From contig JAFKJZ010000470.1 of the NCBI GenBank assembly GCA_017305815.1, positions 1-15,671 of the forward strand: a DNA stretch of 15,671 bases, read 5' to 3'. Shown in pieces: positions 1,509-15,528 of the stretch. The notes below the pieces were generated by a model. The model was not told the origin of the DNA, did no database searches, and saw nothing but the letters and a program-made list of their open reading frames with translations. This DNA comes from Hyphomicrobiales bacterium (lineage in GTDB: Bacteria; Pseudomonadota; Alphaproteobacteria; Rhizobiales; Kaistiaceae). Numbering within the stretch: the stretch's first letter is position 1; the number at the start of each line of letters is the position of its first letter. A program made the translations under genes and the position numbers.

Positions 1509-3184
1509 CTAGGCCGGCTCCGGAGGTTCCGGCCGCGCGGAACGCTGGCGCACATGCGTGCGGGCAAGATAGGCATCCTCGAGGCTGGCGAAGATCATGC
1601 CGGAGCCGATCCGCGCCGAAACGCCGGCCCGATCGAGCAGGGCGCGCACATCGGCGTGCATTTCCGCGAGGCCGAGGGTGACGTTGGTCGCGGCGAGCTC
1701 GTTACGCAACTCGTCGAGCATCGCCGCAGCGGAGCTGTCGAGCTGCGGGATGGCGCTCGCATCCACCACCAGCCATGTGCCGTCGCCGGCTTGCTCGCGG
1801 GCGATCCGCTCCAGCCGGGATTTCACATAGTCGCTGTTGCAGAACAGCAGGCTGCCCTGGATCAGGCAGACGGTCATGCCCGGAACGGGCTGGGAGCCCT
1901 GGAAGCGATGCAGCTTGTAGAAGCCTTCGCGACCCGGGATGCGCCCGAGCAACGCGTCGCGCGGGTACATAAGCTTCTGCATCAGATAGACCAAGGTCGC
2001 GCCGATGGCGATGACGACGCCGTTGAGCACGCCGAGGCCGATCGGCCCCCACATGGCGATCAGCGCGAAGACGAACTCGGCCCGGCTGATGCGCCAGAGA
2101 TTGCGGAGTTCCGTCAGATCGATGAGGCTGAGCGCGGTGGCCGCCAGGATGGCGCCAAGCGCCGGAATCGGGATGACGGCAAGCGCCCCGGTCAATAGCA
2201 GCAGCGCGAGGCCAAGTGCCGACGCGGCGATCAGGCTGACCAGTTGCGTACGGCCGCCGATGGTCGCGTTGACGGCGGTGCGCGAATCCGAAGCCGATAC
2301 GGCGAAGCCGCCGCAAAGGCCGGCGGCGATGTTGGCGGCGCCGAAGCCGGTCAGCTCGCGGTTGGGATCGACGGCATAGCCGCCGCGCACGGCGAAGCTT
2401 CGCGCCGTCACGATGCCCGAGCCGAAACAGACGAGGAAGATGGCGCCGGATCCGAGCAGGAGCGCCGGCAGCATGCTCATCGATATGCGCGGCAGCGACA
2501 GCGACGGCAACGCCGCCGGCACGTCGCCGACGACGGCGATGCCGCGGCCGGCGAAATCGAAGAGATAGGAGAGCAGCGCCGAGACGATGATGACGAGCAC
2601 CGGCCCGGGAATCGGCGATCGCAGGCGCTTCGCCAGCAGGAGCAGCGCGAACATGACGAAGCCGAGGACGAGCGTCGGCCCATGGATCGCGTGCGCCTCG
2701 CGGAACAGTTCGACGATCGGCGCCACGAGGCCGTCGGCAGAGATGTCGAGCCCGGTGAAGCGGTCGATCTGGCCGGTCCGGGGATCGACGATGTTGACCT
2801 CTTCGCCCTTGTCGAAGCGGATGCCGGTCTGGCTCAGGGCCGTGGTGATGCGGCGCGGTGGGCGATGGTCGATCAGGTAGCCGTCGATCACCGCCTGCCG
2901 GTAGCCGTAATGAAACACCGGCGGCCCGAAAATCTCGCAGGCGTGGCGTTCGTCATCGTCGCCAATCCGCGCCGCGCGCTGGCGCTGGCCGCCGCACTGC
3001 CGGTCTCGGGCGGCAATCCGGCAATCGCCGGATAGGCGATGGCGCTGGGCAGCCCGACCGCGGCAACGGCGAGGCCGGCGGAGATGTCCTCCTTCAGCCA
3101 GGCGGGGCGATAGCCGGCGAGGCCGGCGAGAAGCGGCAACCGCCAGCGCCGGCCCTGCGAAACGAGGGGTCGATCGCCACTCAT
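1509..3184 (-). pseudogene. SulP-family anion transporter, disrupted (chimeric with an HsdR-like segment)
   Basis: The N-terminal frame (3184 to about 2999) reads as a SulP start: 'GYRPAWLKEDISAGLAVAA', then 'PSAIAYPAIAGLPPETG', the first transmembrane segment and the family signature. From about 2765 down to 1509 a different frame continues as the rest of a SulP protein. That part has several membrane spans ('GPTLVLGFVMFALLLLAKRL', 'ALWGP'-type segments), 'GYAVDPNRELTGFGAANIAA', and a C-terminal STAS domain with 'LVVDASAIPQLDSSAAAMLD'. The stretch between, which should hold roughly 100 residues of transmembrane helices, is missing. It is replaced by sequence resembling a restriction helicase. 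The two halves are in different frames, so no intact transporter can be made. SulP proteins move sulfate, bicarbonate or other anions across the inner membrane. The ATG at 3184 has GAAAGG upstream. A GTG at 2918 would give a 469-residue product with a non-SulP N terminus. Confidence 0.85.
2760..2970 (-). pseudogene. Fragment resembling a type I restriction R subunit (HsdR helicase region)
   Basis: Read on the minus strand, this stretch gives 'EIFGPPVFHYGYRQAVIDGY', then 'LIDHRPPRRI', 'GIRFDKGEEV' and 'DPRTGQID'. This is the pattern that follows helicase motif III in type I restriction R subunits (xTATPA...EIFGxPVxxYxYREAVIDGYLIDHEPP). Just upstream, in the neighbouring frame (2965-2936), 'LATMTNATPA' resembles motif III. 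The two frames overlap by one base exactly where ATPA should run into EIFG, which fits a one-base deletion. Only about 70 residues of a protein of roughly 800-1000 are present, with no nuclease domain, so it cannot be functional. It sits inside the SulP gene and joins it near 'TGQIDRF', a place where both families have similar sequence. The family match was made by eye. Confidence 0.72.
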
Positions 3185-3372: not shown

Positions 3373-4498
3373 TCAGAATTTTACCAGCGCGCCGCCGAAG
3401 ATCGCCTGGCCCCTGTCGAAGGAGAGGCTGGCCTCGTCATAGGAATAGGTCCGCCACAGCAGCCAGAGCTTGAGATTGGCGGCGTCGACGTTCTGCACCG
3501 CCGCGATGCCGATCGAGCTGCTGTCCGAGCTGGCATTGGCGATATCGCTGCCGAGGTAATAGTCGATCGAGAAGGCGGTGCTGCCGGCGTCGAAGAAGGC
3601 GTGCTCGTAGCCGAGCTTGGCATAGCCGTAATAGCCGGTGGGTCCTGCGGCGTCCTGCTCGCCGGCGGCGACCGTGATGCTGATGCCGCTCGGCTTGTGC
3701 AGCGCCGAGAACGAACCGTCGAAGCGGGTCGATTCGTTCTGGTCGTTGCGCGACAGCCCGACCGCGCTCGCGACCGTCGTACATCGGCTTCGGATCGCTG
3801 ACGAGCCAGTCATAGCCATAGGAAACCTGCACGCCAAAGCCGCCGAAGGTCGGCGTGTCGTAACGGATGCGGAACTTGCGGCTGAGGCCGTCATAATCGT
3901 TGAAGGCGTCGCCGACCGTGACGTCGGAAAGCGCGCCGCCGGGGGCGCGGAAAAAATAGCCGCCAGCCGTGTCGGAGACGCTCGCATAGGCGATGACGGT
4001 CGTGCCGGATTTGTCGACCTCGGCCGTCCCGTCGCTCGCCATGCTGCCTTGGCCGAGCCAGAGCTTGCCGTAGCTCTTGTTGCTGATCGCCGCCTCGGCC
4101 TTGCGGATGTCGCCCTGATCGAAACTCCATTCGGGCCGGTCGTCGAGCTGGCTGACGACGTTGGAGGCGAGCGGCTGGTACTCGACCTCGAAAATGGCCT
4201 CGAACCTCCAGTCGAAATTCGGACTGGAGAACAGCTGGATGCGCGCGCGCGTGCTCGAATTGTCGTTGTCGACGAAATTGCCATAGCTCTGCTGGCCATC
4301 GTCATAGCCGAGATAGCCCATGTTCACCTGGCCGGACAGGCGCACCACCGTCCCGTCCGGAAAGCTGTATTCGATCGGCTTCGGATCTTCGGCATGCGCG
4401 GCCGCCGCGCCGGCGAGCAGGAGGATGAGGCCCGCGCCGATGGGCGCAACACGATTCGTCCGCCGTCTTGCGCACGGAAATGAGGAAAATCGCGCCAT
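3373..4498 (-). pseudogene. Outer-membrane porin, interrupted by a frameshift
   Basis: The N-terminal frame begins 'MARFSSFPCARRR', followed by a hydrophobic stretch 'GAGLILLLAGAAAAHA' that ends in a signal-peptidase-type AHA site. The mature part has porin-like beta-strand sequence: 'VRLSGQVNMGYLGYDDG', 'RARIQLFSS', 'KLWLGQGSMASDG', 'FRIRYDTPTFGGFGVQVSYG'. After 'SDPKPMYD' (about 3777) the sense continues in another frame as 'VASAVGLSRNDQNESTRFDG', 'GYYGYAKLGYEHAFFDAGS' and the end 'AIFGGALVKF'. The terminal phenylalanine is typical of outer-membrane beta-barrels. Rejoined, the protein is about 375 residues, a normal porin size. The shift equals one extra base or two missing bases. An earlier ATG at 4528 is also possible. 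It lies 50-80 bp downstream of the oxidoreductase gene on the same strand, so it may serve uptake of the same substrate. Confidence 0.85.
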
Positions 4499-4579
4499 TT
4501 CGGGGGCCCCGTGGCAAATCACCACCATGCCCCAGCGTAAGCAATAATGGACCGTTCGGATAGACCGTCGGAACCTCCC

Positions 4580-7413
4580 TCAGCCGAATCGGGCGGGCGA
4601 GAAGGCGGCGAGATCACGGCCGGGATCGCGGCCGAGAACGAGGGCGGCGGTCATCTCGCCCATGATCGGGCCGAGCGTGTAGCCGTTCGAGGTGACGGCG
4701 TGGAACAGGCCCTTCTGGCGCGGATCCTCGCCGAGGATGGGGGCGCCGTCGATGTTGATGTTCATGGCGGCCCAGCTGCGGATCACATGCAGCTTGCGCA
4801 GGCCCGGCACGACATGCTGCGCCACCCAGAGATTGCCCTCGAGGCTGTCGAGCCGGGGGCGCGGATGGTGGTGAACGGGATCGAGGCCCGCCGTCCAGCC
4901 GCCGCCGATGATGAAATTGCCGTTCGCCGCCTGCTTCAGCGTCAGATGGCGATCCGCATGGGCGACGAGTGCCGTGATCGCCGGAGCCGCCGCCTCGGTC
5001 ACCACCATCTGCAACGGCGCGCCGAAGACGGGGATTTCGCAGCCGAGCAGCCCGCCGACCTGGCCTGCGAAGGCGCCGGCCGCGTTGACGATGCGGCGCG
5101 CCAGCACGGGGCCGCGCGAGGTCTCGATCCGGAAGCCGCCCGACTCGGCGTAGATGGCAAGCACGCTGCAGCGCTCGTGCAGGATGGCCCCCGCGACACC
5201 GGCGGCATCCAGCAGATGGCGGGTCGCGACCAGCGGATTGATCTTGCCCTCCTGCGGACACCAGGCCGCGCCGACGAACTCGGGATTGAGGGCCGGCTCG
5301 CGCCGCGCCAGTTCCGCCGCGTCGATGACGTGGCTCTCGATCCCCTGCGCCCGCTCCAGCGCCGTCTTCGCCTCGAGGAAACGGAGATGCGCCTCGGTCT
5401 CGGCGACCATCAGGCCGCCGGTGATCTTCATCTCGAAATCGCGGCCGGTCTCCTGCTGCAACCGGCCCCAGAGCGCGATCGAATCGCGCTGCAGCGGCAG
5501 CGTGCGCGCCGCCGGCCCCCCGCCGGCCTCGGCGCGGGCGCCATAGTCGAAGGAGAGAAGCTGGGCGTGCAGGCTGCCGGCATTGCCGCCCGAGGCGACG
5601 CCGTTCGAGAAGCCGTGTTCGAGGATGGCGACGTCGGCGCCGCCGCGCGCCAGGAACAGCGCCGTCGACACGCCGGCGACGCCGGCGCCGATGACGACGA
5701 TGTCAACCCGTGTCTCCGGCAAGCGCGGCGCGCCGTCGAGCGGTGCCCGATCCGGCAGCAGCGCCCGCTTGTGACCACCCCATTCCGGCTTCTCGACGCC
5801 GAGCGAAGCAAGCGGCACCGGCCGGATCGGCATCTGCGGCGCGACAAAATCCTGCGTTTCGCTCGCCGGCTGCCGCGCCCCCGCGATCGCGCCGAGCCGA
5901 TGACTGCAATAGCGGCCCTGGCAGCGGCCCATGCCGGAACGCGACAGCCGCTTCAGCGTCGCGAGATCGGGCGCCGCCGCGGCGGCATCCCGCTCCAGCG
6001 TGGCGCGCGTGACCTCCTCGCAGCGGCAGATCACCGTGTCCGGCGTCGGCGACGGCGGCTCGATCGCCGGGCGGAACAGGTTCCAGAGCGCCGACTGGAA
6101 GGCGAGGCTGCGCGCCCGCCGCCGCAGCGCCAGGCGGACGTCGCCGGACGCGGCTCCGCGCAGCTTGCGGACCGTCGCGCGGCCCGCCAGCTCGCCCTCG
6201 GCCTGCGCCACCAGCGCGCCGCCGAAGCGACCCGCCTCGCCGATGATATGGATGTCCGGCAGCGAGCTTTCGCCATCCGGCTGACGGCGCGCCACCAGCG
6301 CGCCGTCGACGACGTCATGCGCGCAGCCGAGCAGCCGCGACAGGCTGTTGTCGGAGGCGAAGGCGCCGCCGAGCAGGATCGTGTCGGCCTCGATCTCGTG
6401 GACACCGGCGGCGGCGGTCACGGAAGCGCCGGTGACGCGCCCCTCCCCCCGGATCGCCGTGATGCGCGCGCTCCAGTGCACCGGCACGCCCGCGCTCGCG
6501 AGCCGGCGCAGCTGCCGGGTGCCGGCCAGCGCCAGCGCCGGATCGGCGGCGAGAAGCTGAAGGGCCGCGAGCGACTTGCGATAGGGCGACGCGGCCGCCT
6601 CGACGACGCCGACGACGGTGGCGCCAGCCTTGTGCAGTTCGAGCGCGACCTGGAAATCAAGCGGGCCGTTGCCGGCGACGAGCACCCGGCCGGGCGGCAC
6701 GGTGCCATAGGCGCGCAAAAGCGTCTGCGCCGCGCCGGCCGTCATCACGCCCGGAAGCGTCCAGCCCGGCACCGCCGGCACCCGCTCATAGGCGCCGGTC
6801 GCGATCACCAGCAGACGCGGCGCGAAGTAGACCGCGCCTTCCGGACCGTGACAGCCGATCCGCAATTCGCCGTCGCGCCGCTCGGCGCCCCAGACCAGGG
6901 TCTGGCCGAGGATGACGGCGCCGGCGGAACGGGCCCGCGCGATCAGCGCCGCGCCGGCGCCCGCCTGGGCGTCCTCGGCCAGCGAGACGCGCGCCGGCGC
7001 GGTCTCGCGGCAACAGAAGCCGCGCTGAGCCCGGCCGGACCGGCGCCGATCACCAGCATTTCGACCGGACGGACCGGAATGGCTCGGGGCGGCACTCCGA
7101 CGTCGCGAAGGCCGGGATCCCGGATGTCGGGCCGCGCGCTCTGGCGATCGATGACCATGCCGTCGGCGACTGGCGACATGCAGGCGCGCTGGCTGGTGCG
7201 CCCGTCGATCGTCACCAGGCAGTCGTGACAGGCGCCCATGCCGCAGAAGACGCCGCGCGGCGCGCCGGATTTCGACCGAGAAAAGCCGATTTCGCCAGTC
7301 GCAACCAGCGCCGCCGCGACGGAGAGACCCGGCTCGACGACGCGCGAAACGCCGTCGATCGTGATGCGGCAGGCACCGGCGGAAGCGGCCGGCGCAGCGG
7401 GCTTTATGGTCAT
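4580..7413 (-). pseudogene. Fused [2Fe-2S]/FAD-NAD(P)/BFD/DAO oxidoreductase (opine/hydroxyproline dehydrogenase-like), one frameshift
   Basis: Four parts follow in one gene of about 944 residues. First is a ferredoxin-like [2Fe-2S] domain with Cys57, Cys62, Cys65 and Cys78 (C-x4-C-x2-C-x12-C). Second is a two-dinucleotide flavoprotein domain, with 'VIGAGPAGLSAA' at about residue 121 and a second site 'VLVAGNGPLDFQVALELHKAG'. Third is a BFD-like [2Fe-2S] domain, 'CRCEEVT' then 'GRCQGRYC', ending in the 'MPIRPVPLASL' tail typical of HcnB/OoxA proteins. Fourth is a DAO-type FAD domain from about 5705, starting 'VDIVVIGAGVAGVSTA'. These correspond to HcnA, HcnB and HcnC, or to the gamma, alpha and beta subunits of heteromeric D-hydroxyproline dehydrogenase, normally separate proteins. 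The expected reaction is FAD-dependent oxidation of an amino or imino acid to an imine. The frame changes between about 7005 and 7035, equivalent to one missing base. The ATG at 7413 has GGAGA upstream and follows the DapA-family gene by 26 bp. Confidence 0.85.
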
Positions 7414-7439
7414 CTCCGTCTCCGAGCGGCGGCCAAGGA

Positions 7440-8345
7440 TCAGAGCGCGAAGCGCAGTCCGAACTCGTCGACCAGCGCCTTCATCGCCGCATCGCGGCCG
7501 GCCGGCAAGGGCAGGCGCGGCGGCAGCGGCGCGCCGGCGTCGAAGCCCATATGGCGCAGCAGCGCCTTCGAACCGCCGACATAGGCCTGGCCGCCGACCG
7601 CCTGGATCAGCGGCACCCATTTCCGGTAGACGGCGCGCGCGCCGTCATAGTCGCCGGCGGCGGTGCGCTCGAAGATCTCGACCATCGCGGCCGGCGCGAC
7701 GTTGGAAGCGACAGCGACCCAGCCCTCGGCTCCCATCACGAAGCTCTCGAAGCCCATGATGCCGCCGAACACCGTCATCCGGTCACCGGCCAGGCGGATG
7801 ATGTCGCGCACGCGCGTCACGTCCATGGTCGATTCCTTGACGTAGTCGCAGCCGTCGATCTCGGCGATGCGGGCGAGCAGCTCCGGCCCCATGTCGACAT
7901 TGGTGGTGGCGGGATTGTTGTAGACCATGACCGGGATCGAGATCGCCTCGGCGATGGCGCGGTAGTGCGCCACCAGTTCGTCGTCGGTCGGGGTCGAATA
8001 GAAGGGCGGGATCACCATCACGCCGTCGGCGCCGAGTTCCTCGGCCTCGCGGCTGCGGCGGATGACCTCGCGGGTATCCTCGTGACCGGTGCCGATCAGC
8101 ACCGGAACCCGGCACTTCGCCGTCTCGATCACCGTGCGCGCGACGGAGCGGCGATCCGCGTCCGAAAGCGACAGGAACTCACCGGTCGAGCCGAGCGGGA
8201 TCAGGCCATGGATGCCCTGGCGGATCTGCCACTCGGTAAAGTCGCGCATGCCGTCGAGGGAGACGGCGCCATCGACGCGGGTCGGCGTGATCATCACCGT
8301 GAAGACGCCGCGGAAATTCTTCTTCATTCGATCCAATCCAGACAT
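7440..8345 (-). CDS. Dihydrodipicolinate synthase/N-acetylneuraminate lyase family enzyme, probably a lyase or deaminase
   Basis: This TIM-barrel Schiff-base enzyme has 301 residues, the usual family length. It shows 'LGSTGEF' (residues 51-57), the catalytic tyrosine Tyr142 in 'MVYNNPATT' and the Schiff-base lysine Lys170 in 'DYVKEST'. True dihydrodipicolinate synthases have an arginine after the tyrosine motif (YNxPxRT) that holds the substrate carboxylate; here the position is threonine. Lysine biosynthesis is therefore unlikely. Next to an oxidoreductase of the hydroxyproline dehydrogenase type, the best guess is 1-pyrroline-4-hydroxy-2-carboxylate deaminase or a related keto-acid lyase; this is inference from context. 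The ATG at 8345 has an AGAGCGGA ribosome-binding sequence; the ATG at 8327 is an alternative. A conserved 20-bp element lies about 55 bp upstream. Confidence 0.85.
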   Translation of the reverse strand: MSGLDRMKKNFRGVFTVMITPTRVDGAVSLDGMRDFTEWQIRQGIHGLIPLGSTGEFLSLSDADRRSVARTVIETAKCRVPVLIGTGHEDTREVIRRSREAEELGADGVMVIPPFYSTPTDDELVAHYRAIAEAISIPVMVYNNPATTNVDMGPELLARIAEIDGCDYVKESTMDVTRVRDIIRLAGDRMTVFGGIMGFESFVMGAEGWVAVASNVAPAAMVEIFERTAAGDYDGARAVYRKWVPLIQAVGGQAYVGGSKALLRHMGFDAGAPLPPRLPLPAGRDAAMKALVDEFGLRFAL

Positions 8346-8400
8346 TGCAATCCGCTCTAGCCGGTCGCGCGGCCATGGCTGCCCGTCCTGCGACCCTTTC

Positions 8401-8420
8401 TGGATTATTGCGGTATCCCA
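8401..8420 (-). promoter_or_regulatory. Putative GntR operator upstream of the DapA-family gene
   Basis: The minus strand reads TGGGATACCGCAATAATCCA. It matches the element before the ABC binding-protein gene at 18 of 20 bases. Both have the imperfect palindrome TGG-N2-TA-N6-TA-N2-CCA, a plausible dimer site for an FCD-GntR repressor. It ends about 55 bp upstream of the start codon. A weak -35-like TTGCTC lies at 8441-8436, so the element could overlap the -10 region. Binding by the neighbouring GntR proteins is inferred. Confidence 0.6.
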
Positions 8421-8452
8421 CCTGAATACGCAAGGGAGCAACCCGCGCCGGA

Positions 8453-8491: not shown

Positions 8492-9139
8492 TCAGTAGCG
8501 CTTCAGCACGCCGGTGCGGACGATTTCGAGGTGAAAGCTCATGGCGGCGCGGGCGACCTCGGCCTCGCCGTCGAGCAGCGCCTCCAGCACGGCGGCATGC
8601 TCACGCATGCCCGGCTTGATGCGGATCACCGGCATCTGGCGCTCGAAGATGGTGGTGTAGCGGCGCAGGTCGCGGACAAAGGGAAACATGAAGGAATTGC
8701 CGCTCTGCTGGGCGATGTAGTCATGCAGTTCGTCGTCGAAGGTCCAGACATCCTCGAGATCCGGGGCCGGATTTTCCTGCAGGGCGAGGAAATGCCGGTG
8801 GATCACGTCGAGGCGCTGCCGGTCGGGATTGCCGCTCGCCTTGGCGGCGGCGGCCGGCTCCAGCAGCATGCGCATCTCCAGACTGTCGAGATAATCGCGC
8901 AAGGTGATCGTGCGGACGACCAAGCCGGCCGTGTCGTCGCGCACCAGCAGGCCCTCTCCTTCCAGCCGGCTGAGCGCATGCCGCATCGGCGAGCGCGACA
9001 CCTCGTACTGAAGCGCAAGACGCCGTTGCTGGATCGGCGTGCCGCCCGGCAGCCGCGCCGCAAGAATATCCTTGAGGAGCGCCGCGTAGACCTCCTCGCC
9101 AAGGTTCGAATCCGTCTCGGGTGTTTCGTCTTCGAACAT
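8492..9139 (-). CDS. GntR-family transcriptional regulator, FCD subfamily
   Basis: This 215-residue protein has a winged helix-turn-helix at about residues 15-75, including 'QQRRLALQYEVSRSPMRHAL' and then 'RLEGEGLLVRDD'. A helical FCD effector domain of FadR type follows. The FCD metal/ligand residues appear present: Asp and His in 'DDELHDYIAQQSGN', His in 'GMREHAAVLEALLDGE' and His in 'MSFHLEIV'. It most likely represses nearby catabolic genes and is released by the substrate or an intermediate. It is transcribed toward the DapA-family gene and starts back to back with a second FCD-GntR gene. The ATG at 9139 has AAGG about 7 bases upstream. Confidence 0.92.
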   Translation of the reverse strand: MFEDETPETDSNLGEEVYAALLKDILAARLPGGTPIQQRRLALQYEVSRSPMRHALSRLEGEGLLVRDDTAGLVVRTITLRDYLDSLEMRMLLEPAAAAKASGNPDRQRLDVIHRHFLALQENPAPDLEDVWTFDDELHDYIAQQSGNSFMFPFVRDLRRYTTIFERQMPVIRIKPGMREHAAVLEALLDGEAEVARAAMSFHLEIVRTGVLKRY

Positions 9140-9292
9140 CTTGCAACCTTTGCCGCGTCATGCACACGATATAGGATGTACGGGATCGCGCCGGATTGAA
9201 AGTGACCGCGATTTCAAAGTGATGCGCCGCGACCGCAATACCAGCCCGCTGCGGCTGGACAGGTGAATCGGCCAAGGACAGGCGGCAAGGCA
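9140..9292. promoter_or_regulatory. Divergent intergenic region between two GntR genes
   Basis: This region must hold the promoters of both regulators. It contains an inverted repeat TTGAAA (9196-9201) / TTTCAA (9212-9217) with a 10-bp spacer, a candidate autoregulatory operator. It also has ACCGCAATACCAG at 9232-9244, which resembles the right part of the 20-bp element upstream of the DapA-family gene with two bases missing. No clear -35/-10 pair could be assigned. Confidence 0.45.
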
Positions 9293-9955
9293 ATGGACGA
9301 ACTGGCCCAACTCAGCAAGCCGGCGAGGGGCTTGGGAGCCAATCTGAGCGCCCAGGCCTATCGCGCCGTTTCCGACATGATCCGGCAGCGCCGCCTGAAA
9401 GGCGGCCAGTCGATCCTCGAGGCGCCGCTCGCCGAGGCGCTCGGCATTTCGCGCACGCCGTTGCGCGAGGCGCTGCAGCGCCTCGAAGGCGAGCGGATGG
9501 TCTGGAAGAGCGACGGCCGCAACTATGTCGTGCGCAAGGTCGATATCGGCGAATATTTGCAGAGCCTGCGGCTGCGCCTGCTGATCGAGCCGGAAGCGGC
9601 CGTTCTCGCCATGCCGATGATCCCCCGCGCCAAGCTGCACGACGTGCGCCGCGAGGTCCACGAGTTGATCCTGAGTTCGGCCTCCCACACCGACTATCAC
9701 TGGGACACCGACGATCGGCTGCACGGCCTGATCATGGATTTCTGCGGCAACGCCGTCATGGCCAAGGTGCTGAGCGACCTGCGCGTGACGACGCGGCTGT
9801 TCGAGATCGACCGCCTGAAGGACCGCCTGAAACCCGATTCGACCGAGCATCTGGAGATCCTGGATGCGATCGCCGCCGAAGACATCGCGCGCACCCGCCG
9901 CGCCGTCGCCGCCCATGTCGAAAGCCTGATCGCCTTCGCCCGCGGCAATCTCTGA
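9293..9955 (+). CDS. GntR-family transcriptional regulator, FCD subfamily (second copy)
   Basis: This 220-residue protein has a winged helix-turn-helix at about residues 15-75 ('LSAQAYRAVSDMI', 'LAEALGISRTPLREALQRLE'). A C-terminal FCD domain follows, with 'DTDDRLHGLIMDFCGN', 'STEHLEILDAIAAED' and 'AVAAHVESLIAF', which carry the expected Asp and three His ligands. It is clearly diverged from the minus-strand neighbour, so the pair is not a recent duplication. The ATG at 9293 was chosen because AAGGACAGG lies about 10 bases upstream; a GTG at 9263 in the same frame would add ten residues. It lies upstream of and codirectional with the ABC transporter operon, which has its own promoter. It probably controls that operon, the catabolic genes, or both. 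Confidence 0.9.
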   Translation: MDELAQLSKPARGLGANLSAQAYRAVSDMIRQRRLKGGQSILEAPLAEALGISRTPLREALQRLEGERMVWKSDGRNYVVRKVDIGEYLQSLRLRLLIEPEAAVLAMPMIPRAKLHDVRREVHELILSSASHTDYHWDTDDRLHGLIMDFCGNAVMAKVLSDLRVTTRLFEIDRLKDRLKPDSTEHLEILDAIAAEDIARTRRAVAAHVESLIAFARGNL

Positions 9956-10191
9956 GCCCGCCGGCCCAGCCCTCCCCTTTTCTCCGGCCCCCGTCGCCCC
10001 AATGTCACCCCCGCCAAGCCCGCCGAAAGGCCGGATGGTGGCGCCGCAGGCCCGTGCGATGACGCAGCGCCGCCAGCTCGCCGAGCGCCAGTGAGTGTTC
10101 AGGGGCCTGCGAAAGCCAAACATTCCAATGACTTGGACCTCATCCGGCAAATGTGCCCGCCAAAGAGGCAGGCGTGACGCCGGAAAGAGGT
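9956..10191. other. Intergenic stretch with no recognisable gene
   Basis: Between the GntR gene and the transporter promoter there is no ORF with coding character, no clear terminator and no repeat. It ends at the -35 box of the downstream promoter. Confidence 0.5.
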
Positions 10192-10219
10192 TTGACAATC
10201 AAATGGGCGGTGCTAGCGT
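10192..10219 (+). promoter_or_regulatory. Predicted sigma-70-type promoter of the ABC transporter operon
   Basis: A perfect -35 box TTGACA (10192-10197) is followed 16 bases later by TAGCGT inside TGCTAGCGT, a common alphaproteobacterial -10 form. Transcription would begin near 10226, inside the adjoining operator-like element. Both the spacing and the strong -35 support this call. Confidence 0.65.
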
Positions 10220-10238
10220 GGGATACCAGAATAATCCA
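10219..10238 (+). promoter_or_regulatory. Putative GntR operator at the ABC operon start
   Basis: TGGGATACCAGAATAATCCA differs at only two central bases from the element upstream of the DapA-family gene. It spans the predicted transcription start and touches the AGGGGA ribosome-binding sequence. A bound regulator would block transcription initiation there. The identity of the regulator is inferred from the two neighbouring GntR genes. Confidence 0.62.
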
Positions 10239-10252
10239 AGGGGAACGAAAAC

Positions 10253-11809
10253 ATGAAATTCCTGGCTCCCGTCCTGTCTGTGAGTGCGGCAGCACTGCTG
10301 GTGCTGTCGGCGACGAATCTCTCCTGGGCGGCTCCGACCGGCGTGCTGGTGATCGCGGAAAACGAGACGCCGGAGAATCTGGATCCGGCCAACGCGACCA
10401 ATTCCACCGTCGACCAGCTGCTGCTCGGCGTCTATGACGCCCTCGTCCAGTTCAAGGCGGGCCAGCTCGAGGCGACGCCGCAGCTGGCCAAGAGCTGGGC
10501 CATCTCGGAGGACGGACGCACCTACACCTTCACGCTGCGCGACGACGTCACCTTCCATGACGGCAGCAAGCTGACCGCCGCCGACGTGAAGTTCACGCTC
10601 GACCGGCTGAAGGCGGCGAACGCCGGCGTCATGAACAATCTCGGCAGCTACAGCTCGGCCGAGGTGATCGACGACCACACCGTGGCGCTGAAGCTCGACG
10701 CGCCGTTCGGGCCGTTCGTCTCGGCGCTGTCGCGCATCTACATCGTCTCGAAGGCGATGGTCGAGCCGCATATGGGCGAGGACAATGCCCGCCAGTGGCT
10801 CGCCGTCAATACGGCCGGCTCCGGCCCCTACAACATCTCCGAATACGCCCCTACCGAAGCGGTCACGCTCGACGCCGTGCCCGAATACTGGGGCGGCTGG
10901 AACGGCAACCACGTCGCCACCGTCGTGTTCCGCTATGTCTCGGAGCCGTCGACCCAGCTCGCGCTGCTGCAACGCGGCGAAGTGCAGATCGCGCCCGACG
11001 TCACGCTCGACGACAAGATCACGCTGAAGACGACGCCGGGCTATGTCGTCGATATCGGCGCGGCGGCGACGCCGCTGTTCTTCACCATCAACACCGCCTC
11101 GGCCGGCCCGACCGGCAATCCGGAATTCCGCCGCATGCTGTCGATGAGCTTCGACCGCAAGCTGCATCTGGAACAGGTCCTGCGCGGCTTCGGCACGCTC
11201 GCCGACGGTCCGTTGCCGCCGACCTGGATGGGCTACGAGCCGAAGTCCGAGACCGGCTTCGACCTCGAAGGCGCCCGAGCCCTGGTCGAGAAGAACGGCT
11301 GGAAGGGCACCACGCTTACCGTGCGCTACCTGCCGGCCATCCAGGAAGAACAGCTCGCCGTCGAGCAGCTGCAGTCGAACCTCGGCCAACTCGGCATCAC
11401 CCTGAAGGCCGAGGGCATGACCTGGCCGGCGCAGGCCGCGACCATGGGCAAGCTGGAGACGACGGCGGATCTGAACGTCACCTACAGCTTCCCGGCCTTC
11501 CCCGACCCGCACGCCATCCTGAACACCAGCTTCAACGGCGCGTTCACCGGGCTGAAGGGCGGTCTGAACTGGTCGCAATACGACAATCCCAAGGTCAACG
11601 ACCTGCTCGACCGCGCCGCCCTCTCCGCCGATCCGGCCGAGCGCGGCGAGCTCTACCGCGAGGCGCAGAAGCTCCTCGGCGCCGATCACGTCGCCATCAC
11701 GGCGTCGCTGCCCGGCTCGGTGGTGGCGCTCTCCGACAAGGTCGAGGGCTATGTCTACAACCCGGCCCACCACCAGACCTTCAACTACATGGACATTGGC
11801 CTGAAATAG
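10253..11809 (+). CDS. ABC transporter substrate-binding protein, family 5 (peptide/opine/nickel type)
   Basis: This 518-residue periplasmic binding protein has a signal peptide (Met-Lys, hydrophobic core 'AAALLVLSA', cleavage probably after 'LSWA' at residue 26). Family-5 landmarks are visible: 'NLDPANATN', 'TPQLAKSWAISEDGRTYTFT', 'LRDDVTFHDGSKLTAADVKF', 'GSGPYNISEY', 'EFRRMLSMSFDRK' and the C-terminal 'RGELYREAQKLLGAD'. It captures the substrate and delivers it to the permeases encoded downstream. Relatives bind di- or oligopeptides, opines, nickel complexes or other small ligands, so the ligand cannot be named. It starts eight bases after AGGGGA and is the first gene of the operon. A hairpin separates it from the permease genes. 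Confidence 0.92.
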   Translation: MKFLAPVLSVSAAALLVLSATNLSWAAPTGVLVIAENETPENLDPANATNSTVDQLLLGVYDALVQFKAGQLEATPQLAKSWAISEDGRTYTFTLRDDVTFHDGSKLTAADVKFTLDRLKAANAGVMNNLGSYSSAEVIDDHTVALKLDAPFGPFVSALSRIYIVSKAMVEPHMGEDNARQWLAVNTAGSGPYNISEYAPTEAVTLDAVPEYWGGWNGNHVATVVFRYVSEPSTQLALLQRGEVQIAPDVTLDDKITLKTTPGYVVDIGAAATPLFFTINTASAGPTGNPEFRRMLSMSFDRKLHLEQVLRGFGTLADGPLPPTWMGYEPKSETGFDLEGARALVEKNGWKGTTLTVRYLPAIQEEQLAVEQLQSNLGQLGITLKAEGMTWPAQAATMGKLETTADLNVTYSFPAFPDPHAILNTSFNGAFTGLKGGLNWSQYDNPKVNDLLDRAALSADPAERGELYREAQKLLGADHVAITASLPGSVVALSDKVEGYVYNPAHHQTFNYMDIGLK

Positions 11810-11832
11810 GCCGGCTCCGCCCGCAATAGAAC

Positions 11833-11868
11833 GTATCGCCCCGCGTGCCCGGCATGGCGGGGCGATAC
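11833..11868 (+). terminator. Intercistronic hairpin between binding protein and permease genes
   Basis: Arms GTATCGCCCCGC (11833-11844) and GCGGGGCGATAC (11857-11868) form a perfect 12-bp stem with a 12-base loop. No T-run follows. Such hairpins after binding-protein genes can protect the upstream mRNA from 3' exonucleases or cause partial termination, giving more binding protein than permease. Confidence 0.6.
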
Positions 11869-11896
11869 AACGCCGACGGCACGATCAGGAACGCCA

Positions 11897-12904
11897 ATGT
11901 CTTACATCCTTCAACGGATCGGCTTCTCGATCCTCTCCCTGCTTGTGCTCGTCTTCATCACCTTCCTGCTCAGCCATGTGGTGCCCGGCGACCCGGCCTA
12001 TGTGGCGGCGGGACCGAATGCCGGCGTGGAGAAGATCGCCGAGGTGCGCGCCCAGATGGGGCTGGACCGGCCCTTCCTGGTGCAGTTCGCGATCTATCTC
12101 GGCAGCATCCTGCGCGGCGATTTCGGCACGTCCTGGTTCACCCACCAGCCGCTCCTGAACGACATCCTGCGCGAACTGCCGCCGTCGCTCGAACTGGTGG
12201 CGATCGCCATGGCGATCAACCTCGCCGTCTCGCTGCCGCTCGGCCTGCTGACGGCGCGCTACAGCGGCTCCCGCTTCGACGACCTCGTCCGCCTGGTATC
12301 GATCGCCGGCGCCGGCCTGCCGATCTTCTGGACCGCGATCCTGCTGCAGCAGAAATTCGCCGTCGACCTGCAGATGTTCCCGGTCGCCGGCCGGCTCGAT
12401 TTCGCCTTCCGCTCCTTCAAGTCGCCGACCGGCTTCGTGCTGCTGGACAGCCTCCTGCAGGGCCGGCCCGACGTCTTCGCCAATGCGCTGTCGCATCTGC
12501 TTTTGCCCGCCGTGGCGCTGTCGCTCCTGTTCACCGCCGTCGGCGTCCGCATCACCCGCACCTCGATGATCAGCGAATTCCGCAAGGACTACGTGACGCT
12601 GGCCCGCGCCAAGGGCGCCGGCGAGCGGCGGATCATGCTGCGCCACGTCTTCCCGAACGGCGCGACGCCGGCGCTCACCGTGTTCGGCATGCAGTTCGGC
12701 TGGATGCTGGGCGCCACCGTGCTGGTCGAGGAGATCTTCGGCCGGCCCGGCATCGGCCGCTACGCCGTCAAGGCGGTGACGCAGTCCGACATCCACGGCG
12801 TCGTCGCCGTCGTCTTCGTCATCGGCGTCATCTTCCTGATCTCCAATCTCGTGGTGGACCTGCTGCTCTACGTCCTCAATCCGCGCAAGCACCAGGGGGC
12901 CTGA
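11897..12904 (+). CDS. ABC transporter permease, DppB/OppB type
   Basis: This 335-residue inner-membrane protein has the typical DppB start: 'MSYILQRIGFSILSLLVLVF' with the first helix, then 'VVPGDPAY' and 'RAQMGLDRPFLVQF'. Several hydrophobic helices follow. The coupling (EAA) loop is 'DYVTLARAKGAGERRIMLRHVFPNG', where it contacts an ATPase. The end 'EEIFGRPGIGRYAVKAV' is also a family signature. With the next permease it forms the channel for the captured substrate. AGGA lies 8 bases before the start. It is followed by the second permease after 3 bp, showing tight operon structure. Confidence 0.93.
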   Translation: MSYILQRIGFSILSLLVLVFITFLLSHVVPGDPAYVAAGPNAGVEKIAEVRAQMGLDRPFLVQFAIYLGSILRGDFGTSWFTHQPLLNDILRELPPSLELVAIAMAINLAVSLPLGLLTARYSGSRFDDLVRLVSIAGAGLPIFWTAILLQQKFAVDLQMFPVAGRLDFAFRSFKSPTGFVLLDSLLQGRPDVFANALSHLLLPAVALSLLFTAVGVRITRTSMISEFRKDYVTLARAKGAGERRIMLRHVFPNGATPALTVFGMQFGWMLGATVLVEEIFGRPGIGRYAVKAVTQSDIHGVVAVVFVIGVIFLISNLVVDLLLYVLNPRKHQGA

Positions 12905-12907
12905 GCC

Positions 12908-13744
12908 ATGTGGTCGGAACTGCGCCGCTATCCCAAGAGCTCGGTCGAGCGCCTGTCCGTCGCGCTGGCGATCCTGATCATCCTGGTCGCCGTCGTCGGC
13001 GTCTGGCTCGCCCCGCACGATCCGCTGCTGATCGATTTCCGCTCCAAGCTTTTGCCGCCCTCCCCCGAGCACTGGCTCGGCACCGACGGCTCCGGCCGCG
13101 ACGTGCTGAGCCGCCTGCTCGCCGGCGCCCGGCTCACCCTCACCTCGACCATGGTGGTGATCCTCTCCGCGCTGGTGATCGGCTGCACGATCGGCATCGC
13201 CTCCGCCTTCCTCGGCGGCGCCATCGACAATCTGCTGATGCGGCTCACCGACATCTGGCTCGGCTTTCCGCCGCTGATCCTGGCGCTCGGCTTCGCCGCC
13301 GCCATGGGCGCGAGCCTGGAAGCAGCGATCTGGGCGCTCGTCTTCTCCTGGTGGCCGAACTATGCCCGGCTCTGCCGGATGATCACGCGCGACATCCTCG
13401 CGCAGAAATACATGGCGAGCGCCAGCGCGCTCGGCGTCTCGACTCTGCGCAAGGTGTTCCGCTATGTGCTGCCGAACGCCTTCGACGTGCTGATCATCCA
13501 GGTGACGCTCGACATCTCGGCCGTCATGCTCGGCATTTCCGGCCTCTCCTTCATCGGCGTCGGCGCGCAGATCCCGACCCCCGAATGGGGCGCGATGATC
13601 TCCGACGGCCGCTCCTTCGTCAGCAATGGCTGGTGGATCGTCGTCTTCCCCGGCCTCGCGATCTTCCTCACCGCGCTCAGCTTCAACGTCATCGGCGACA
13701 TGCTGCGGCGGGAGCTCGATCCCACCTCGCGGCGCCGGCAGTGA
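12908..13744 (+). CDS. ABC transporter permease, DppC/OppC type
   Basis: This 278-residue inner-membrane protein pairs with the preceding permease. After an N-terminal helix, 'APHDPLLIDF' and 'HWLGTDGSGRDVLSRLLAGA' are the family's conserved periplasmic and turn motifs. The EAA loop is 'QKYMASASALGVSTLRKVFRYVLPN'. Later helices hold 'GLSFIGVGAQIPTPEWGAMI', a standard DppC signature. The length and all landmarks are complete, so it is probably functional. The start codon lies 3 bp after the upstream stop. The ATPase gene follows at 13774. Confidence 0.93.
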   Translation: MWSELRRYPKSSVERLSVALAILIILVAVVGVWLAPHDPLLIDFRSKLLPPSPEHWLGTDGSGRDVLSRLLAGARLTLTSTMVVILSALVIGCTIGIASAFLGGAIDNLLMRLTDIWLGFPPLILALGFAAAMGASLEAAIWALVFSWWPNYARLCRMITRDILAQKYMASASALGVSTLRKVFRYVLPNAFDVLIIQVTLDISAVMLGISGLSFIGVGAQIPTPEWGAMISDGRSFVSNGWWIVVFPGLAIFLTALSFNVIGDMLRRELDPTSRRRQ

Positions 13745-13773
13745 CCCCGATGCACGATACAGCGAGGACTGAC

Positions 13774-14745
13774 ATGGAACGCCCGCTCATCGAGCTCGAG
13801 AACGTCTCCGTCACATTGCGCAACCTCGAGATCCCGATGGTGACCGGCGTGTCGTTCGCGGTCAGGCCGCGCGAGATCTTCGGCATCGTCGGCGAATCCG
13901 GCTCCGGCAAGACGCTTTTGACGCGCACCATCTTCGCCCTGCACGAGGACACCTATCTCTCGGCCGGCAAGGTGACGTTCGACGGCGAGGTGCTGCCTCT
14001 CAACGGCTACATGAAGGCGATGAAACGGCGGCTCGGCCATGCCATCGGCTACATCCCGCAGGATCCGTTCGCGTCGCTGAACCCGACCATGCGCGTCGGC
14101 GAGCAGATCACCGAGGCGCTCTACCTGGCCAAGGGCTATCCGCAGAAATCCGAACGCGCCCGCGAGGCCGCCATCGGCCTCCTGGCCGAGGTCGGCATCG
14201 CCGAGCCGGCGCTCGCCTTCCGCCAGTTCCCGGACCAGTTCTCCGGCGGCATGCGGCAGCGCATCGTCATCGCCATCGCGCTGTCGCAGGATCCACGCCT
14301 GCTGATCGCCGACGAGCCGACCACGGCGCTCGACGCCTTCACCCAGCGCCGGGTGATGGAGCTCCTGCTGGAGCGCTCGCGCAACCGCGACCTCGCCGTT
14401 CTGCTCATCAGCCACAATCTCGAACTGCTGCGGCAGTCGGTCGACCGCATGGCCGTTCTCTATGGCGGCCAGCTGCTGAACGTCACGCCGACGGCCGATA
14501 TCGGCACGCGCGCGGTGCACCCCTATGCGCAGGCGCTGTTCGACTGCATGCCGACGCGGGACAAGGCGCTCTCCGACATCCGCTCGATCCCCGGCGAACC
14601 GGTCGGCGCCGGCTTCGGACGGCGCGGCTGCGCCTTCGCCTCGCGCTGCGCCCACGCCGCCGAGACCTGCCGCACCCAGGACCTGCCGATCAACCAGGGC
14701 CATGGCGACCGCTTCAGCGCCTGCCTGCTCGGAATGGGAGCGTAG
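13774..14745 (+). CDS. ABC transporter ATP-binding protein, DppD/OppD type
   Basis: This 323-residue ATPase has Walker A 'GESGSGKT' (residues 40-47), Q-loop 'IPQDPFASLNP', signature 'FSGGMRQR', Walker B 'RLLIADEPT' and the switch histidine in 'LLISHNLE'. The C-terminal oligopeptide-transporter domain is present with its conserved cysteines ('GCAFASRCAHAAETC' and the final 'SACL'). It couples ATP hydrolysis to transport as one half of a heterodimer with the next gene product. The ATG at 13774 is preferred because GAGGA lies 5 bases upstream; an in-frame ATG at 13750 is less well placed. Confidence 0.92.
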   Translation: MERPLIELENVSVTLRNLEIPMVTGVSFAVRPREIFGIVGESGSGKTLLTRTIFALHEDTYLSAGKVTFDGEVLPLNGYMKAMKRRLGHAIGYIPQDPFASLNPTMRVGEQITEALYLAKGYPQKSERAREAAIGLLAEVGIAEPALAFRQFPDQFSGGMRQRIVIAIALSQDPRLLIADEPTTALDAFTQRRVMELLLERSRNRDLAVLLISHNLELLRQSVDRMAVLYGGQLLNVTPTADIGTRAVHPYAQALFDCMPTRDKALSDIRSIPGEPVGAGFGRRGCAFASRCAHAAETCRTQDLPINQGHGDRFSACLLGMGA

Positions 14746-14748
14746 CCG

Positions 14749-15528
<780 letters not shown>

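Follow-up and report, generated by a model that had tools for sequence, protein, structure and literature searches.

A sulP gene interrupted by fragments of murE and hsdR in a draft Hyphomicrobiales genome is best explained as an assembly artefact

Transporters of the SulP family combine a Sulfate_transp domain (PF00916) with a STAS domain (PF01740). Two intact members serve as reference here: P0001, known from metagenome data and 92% identical to the SulP protein of the locus under study, and P0111 from Kaistia granuli, as which the 565-residue SulP of a same-genus genome (G003) also reads. Short-patch illegitimate replacement by foreign DNA occurs during natural transformation. De Bruijn assemblers usually need a long shared word for a join. 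Local errors and chimeras of metagenome-assembled genomes are treated in PMC7111523, which takes as test for a local error whether any read supports the region. The same source has scaffolds chimeric between two organisms as rare, a point that counts against the assembly-error reading proposed below.

The window, that is the whole stretch of 15,671 nucleotides that was analysed, corresponds to the entire contig C436 of a Hyphomicrobiales draft genome (G000). This draft has 4.21 Mb in 719 contigs, is 92.07% complete and shows 5.28% contamination; its fragmentation and contamination suggest that it is a metagenome bin, and its incompleteness means that absences from it fall short of proof. The sequence of the window does contain the chimera, in which part of the front half of sulP appears to be replaced by short pieces of two genes unrelated to it (Table 1).

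Table 1. Features of the chimeric sulP locus and of the genes next to it (window positions).
Feature	Position	Strand	Basis or remark
SulP carboxyl-terminal part with STAS, from GQID	1512..2775	-	P0001 alignment; Pfam Sulfate_transp 129-379, STAS
469-residue chimeric ORF	1509..2918	-	GTG inside the hsdR piece; ORF list
Piece of hsdR (type I restriction R subunit)	2757..2939, could reach 2945	-	DNA and protein matches
Right join, 14-nt word CGGCCAGATCGACC	2762..2775	-	Compatible with hsdR relatives and with the GQID reading of SulP in the window
98-residue ORF, SulP amino terminus out of frame through the insert	2888..3184	-	ORF list
murE fragment, on the strand opposite to sulP and hsdR	2943..2996	+	DNA matches; fetched stretches read as MurE
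SulP amino-terminal part, residues 1-63	2998..3184	-	Start ATG 3184; P0001 alignment; Pfam Sulfate_transp positions 1-33
Porin gene (Porin_4)	3373-4528	-	Domain search; frame break about 3773
Apparent fused oxidoreductase gene: Fer2_4, Pyr_redox_2, weak BFD and DAO	4580-7620	-	Domain search; frame break about 7010-7040
DHDPS-family gene	7443-8441		Adjoins the fused oxidoreductase gene

Both flanks of the break fit one SulP protein in the correct order and orientation. The amino-terminal part is identical to P0001 at 61 of 67 aligned residues, the last few of which lie past the break, and it stops at GLPPETG about position 2998-2999, in agreement with an earlier note on this DNA that had it end near 2999. 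The same note was right that SulP sequence resumes beyond the break, the point of resumption being GQID about 2775 and not 2765. From there to the stop codon at 1509-1511 the gene reads as SulP; it agrees with P0001 at 400 of the 434 residues of an alignment whose first dozen or so are still HsdR. Residues 64-161 of P0001 are missing, which amounts to 98 residues or 294 nt; a tblastn search with a G003 protein describes the break as 221 nt inserted against 98 residues lost. The Sulfate_transp domain is incomplete, its two matched portions being found in different ORFs and positions 34-128 of the 380-position profile having no match, while the STAS domain is recognized at the SulP carboxyl terminus (PF01740, 1.9e-13). 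A search of G000 with P0001 returned the two flanks and distant paralogues, with no separate copy of residues 67-159 on another contig. The presence of the true segment elsewhere in the assembly is not something that a misassembly requires. G000 has a second, distant SulP at G000:C512:2217-3899, 34% identical to P0001 and with one TGA inside the match.

The earlier note had assigned the sequence between the two SulP parts to HsdR. This identification stands for the larger piece. A scan of genome contigs found the hsdR-encoding stretch in 64 loci, the best DNA match among them (L031) being 88% identical over 186 nt (2756-2941). At the protein level the piece is related to HsdR by identity at 58 of 58 residues with P0159, a metagenomic HsdR of 1129 residues found among the best 120 of 784 HsdR proteins. 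The similarity stops about 2939-2945 instead of continuing to 2970-2999; of the 2765-2970 interval over which HsdR had been expected, the part covered by 2757-2939 does match, and the upper part is murE. A whole helicase and nuclease protein is not encoded, only residues 616-689 of the 1138-residue HsdR query finding a match in G000. Whether G000 was probed with the peptide encoded in the window or with full HsdR, this place alone was hit, and no source elsewhere; HsdM was not found in G000 in a search that had no positive control. The hsdR stretch is present in two of 28 genomes of the family, G000 itself and one of another genus (G043). A DNA search of plasmids gave one record matching the HsdR part, an Allochromatium hsdR.

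HsdR is not the sole filler of the gap, as the earlier note had supposed: a third piece, inverted and derived from murE, had been missed. Its best match, 91% over 54 nt, is found in a genome of another family (G061) within an ORF that reads KVPFVTVANPRRALALAAARFFP and then TAVTGTSGKTSVA, a motif by which we take this ORF to be MurE, the UDP-N-acetylmuramyl-tripeptide synthetase. Two other fetched stretches concur with the MurE identity, and the frame model used without homology likewise puts 2938-3029 on the plus strand. Among 397 genomes of the order, nine including the own genome match the piece at E 1e-8 or better, and seven of the eight foreign ones belong to one genus; matches within genomes of the family are all weak. 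A tblastn search of plasmids with the 21-residue piece of the 2943-2996 region gave nothing. The own murE, on contig C484, was rejected as source since it reads VPVLRAADPRIALAHLAARFYP there and differs. Two other identities considered for 2943-2996 were dropped in favour of murE, namely an ABC-transporter signature word (26-nt matches) and, at 86% over 42 nt, a mandelate-racemase-like gene of G000. The word SGGQRQR is the ABC-transporter signature. Positions 2969-2994, inside the murE piece, are up to 96% identical over their 26 nt to SGGQRQR-coding DNA of several own contigs, and many short matches of this coding word occur across the family's genomes.

The assignment of 2943-2996 to murE rules out hsdR as single donor, and nothing speaks more strongly against a single recombination than this fragment. 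The insert of ~221 nt belongs to a mosaic in which three genes, one inverted, are represented within about 240 bp. The observation that the right junction falls where the two families look alike proved correct, the word CGGCCAGATCGACC being common to hsdR relatives and to the SulP reading. It occurs in the hsdR relatives L031 (from the second base) and L037; the sulP relative L011 has CGGCCAGATCG, then a single differing base, then CCGCTTCACCGGG, the sulP relatives L012 and L013 share CGGCCAGATC, and P0001 reads IGQIDRF at this point. The 14 nt are a length compatible with both hsdR and sulP and not a measured identity, relatives standing in for the sulP of the strain. The other two joins have little or no overlap.

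A word common to both genes at the right join is also what a real illegitimate recombination could leave, in which about 294 nt of sulP would have been replaced by murE and hsdR DNA of related bacteria joined end to end, the right edge making use of short homology and the transporter being inactivated. Such short-patch replacement has the merit of being a described process. The event is nevertheless unlikely, because it takes two unrelated foreign donors, one in inverted orientation, in a space of about 240 bp, a clear shared word is found at one join only, the mosaic is present in no other database protein listed, and the site lies in a fragmented and contaminated draft. That multi-donor illegitimate recombination took place in the chromosome of a natural population, with about 294 nt of sulP lost to murE and hsdR and the sulfate transporter inactivated, is quite improbable. 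A composite of short pieces, one inverted and with little overlap at two joins, is also what would be expected of a chimeric DNA molecule formed during library preparation or amplification and carried into a low-coverage contig. Nothing at this locus tells that origin from an assembler error, and the chimeric molecule would have had to outweigh the true reads; we regard it as very unlikely.

The insert length of 221 nt is not divisible by three, and the frame of the SulP amino terminus is therefore not continued into the carboxyl-terminal half; it ends at 2888 after 98 residues. The 469-residue ORF starts at GTG 2918, as reported before, and stays open as far as the stop codon of SulP, which could suggest a new functional SulP variant, made and working, that reads across the joint VDPRTGQIDRFTG. 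This would be a most improbable protein. Its start is an internal valine codon of HsdR, residues 1-161 of P0001 are gone, QLIVGPDAAT among them, and the HsdR part is found in none of the best 120 of 1502 relatives. With such a start and without the first 161 SulP residues, the ORF provides no evidence of a working chimera and is not a credible protein. Neither chimeric reading occurs in any listed protein (the best 120 of 1502 in one listing, all 90 in another). The QLIVGPDAAT stretch of the lost segment is presumably a neighbour of the third helix of SulP/SLC26 proteins, which binds the anion, and the intact SulP relative aligns with solved prestin and SULTR chains over the lost region; on these grounds a protein devoid of this segment would not be expected to transport.

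The window has two further frame breaks according to a Viterbi frame model, one in the porin gene and one in the fused oxidoreductase gene. The same model found 5 breaks in 269 kb from 40 other G000 contigs, which were hand-picked, several since earlier searches had matched them, against a single break each in G010 (400 kb) and G003 (800 kb, 40 of 80 stretches). By rough Poisson estimates, two or more breaks in the window would have P = 0.035 if the other contigs set the rate, and five or more breaks in the other contigs would have P = 1e-4 at the control rate. A first frame scan, which required segments within 60 nt, had yielded 2 breaks in the 40 other contigs and none in the window, in 400 kb of G010 or in 1.6 Mb of G003; the porin segments are 68 nt apart, and the Viterbi version was adopted after that result. 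In a homology survey, 51 reference proteins were matched in G000 with no frameshift and no patch besides the sulP one, and the control G010 had two frameshifts and no patch among 175 matched proteins. The survey saw no frameshift in G000, so that the excess of breaks rests on the Viterbi frame model, joined by homology for the porin. The lack of a second patch implies that errors of this kind do not abound in the assembly and that the patch is not typical of it.

The porin break is backed by five same-genus genomes that match the ORF up to residue 239-240 only; a genome from a different genus gives, in addition, a weak second match (251-358) that contains stops. The fusion in the oxidoreductase gene is natural, its Pyr_redox-BFD-DAO part being matched end to end at 46-49% in seven of 27 other genomes of the family. 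Together with the DHDPS-family gene it may represent a D-hydroxyproline dehydrogenase with its deaminase. At 8492-15528 the ORFs, judged by eye, comprise two GntR-like regulators and the components of a peptide-type ABC transporter, namely a binding protein, a pair of permeases and a pair of ATPases.

Taken as a whole, the mosaic is best explained as an artefact and not as a real feature. It is very likely a local misassembly in an otherwise normal sulP, bridged with reads of co-occurring bacteria. This explanation is favoured by the three gene origins in so short a space with one inverted, by the lack of a source elsewhere in the incomplete G000 draft, by the existence of an intact relative at 92%, by the absence of either chimeric reading from the proteins listed, by the fragmented and contaminated nature of the draft, and by the two further frame breaks in the window. 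The patch comes from more than one source (hsdR and murE), neither found elsewhere in G000. The choice between recombination at short homology and mis-assembly, which had been left undecided, is tilted by this evidence to the latter. Points against are that no other patch was seen in the 51 comparisons, an observation that speaks for real recombination, that the first frame scan found no break in the window, and that two of the three joins have no long shared word.

A misassembly could have arisen if coverage was poor at sulP and the assembler or a gap filler bridged the region with reads of co-occurring Rhizobiales. The right side would have been joined through the short word common to hsdR and sulP, and the other two joins made with little or no overlap. 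In the cell itself SulP is most likely intact and the chimeric protein is not produced. As an artefact, the locus illustrates how a gene that looks like a fusion, and withstands ORF and domain tests, can arise in a draft genome. It also offers a way to expose such a case without reads, by tracing every piece of the insert and finding several absent donors. A genuine event would document, in nature, an illegitimate recombination that drew on more than one donor.

Compared to the intact SulP proteins P0001 and P0111, the window has the same 63 amino-terminal residues and everything from GQID on, but lacks residues 64-161 and has its two parts in different frames. It shares about 60 identical or nearly identical residues with HsdR (P0159 and L031; solved relative 3h1t), which is only about 5% of the 1129-residue P0159. 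The likeness to MurE is limited to 54 nt at 91% to G061, about 18 codons only, and these are inverted. The local assembly errors and chimeras of metagenome-assembled genomes, as portrayed in PMC7111523, likewise consist of a short wrong stretch in an otherwise correct contig from which an incorrect gene results.
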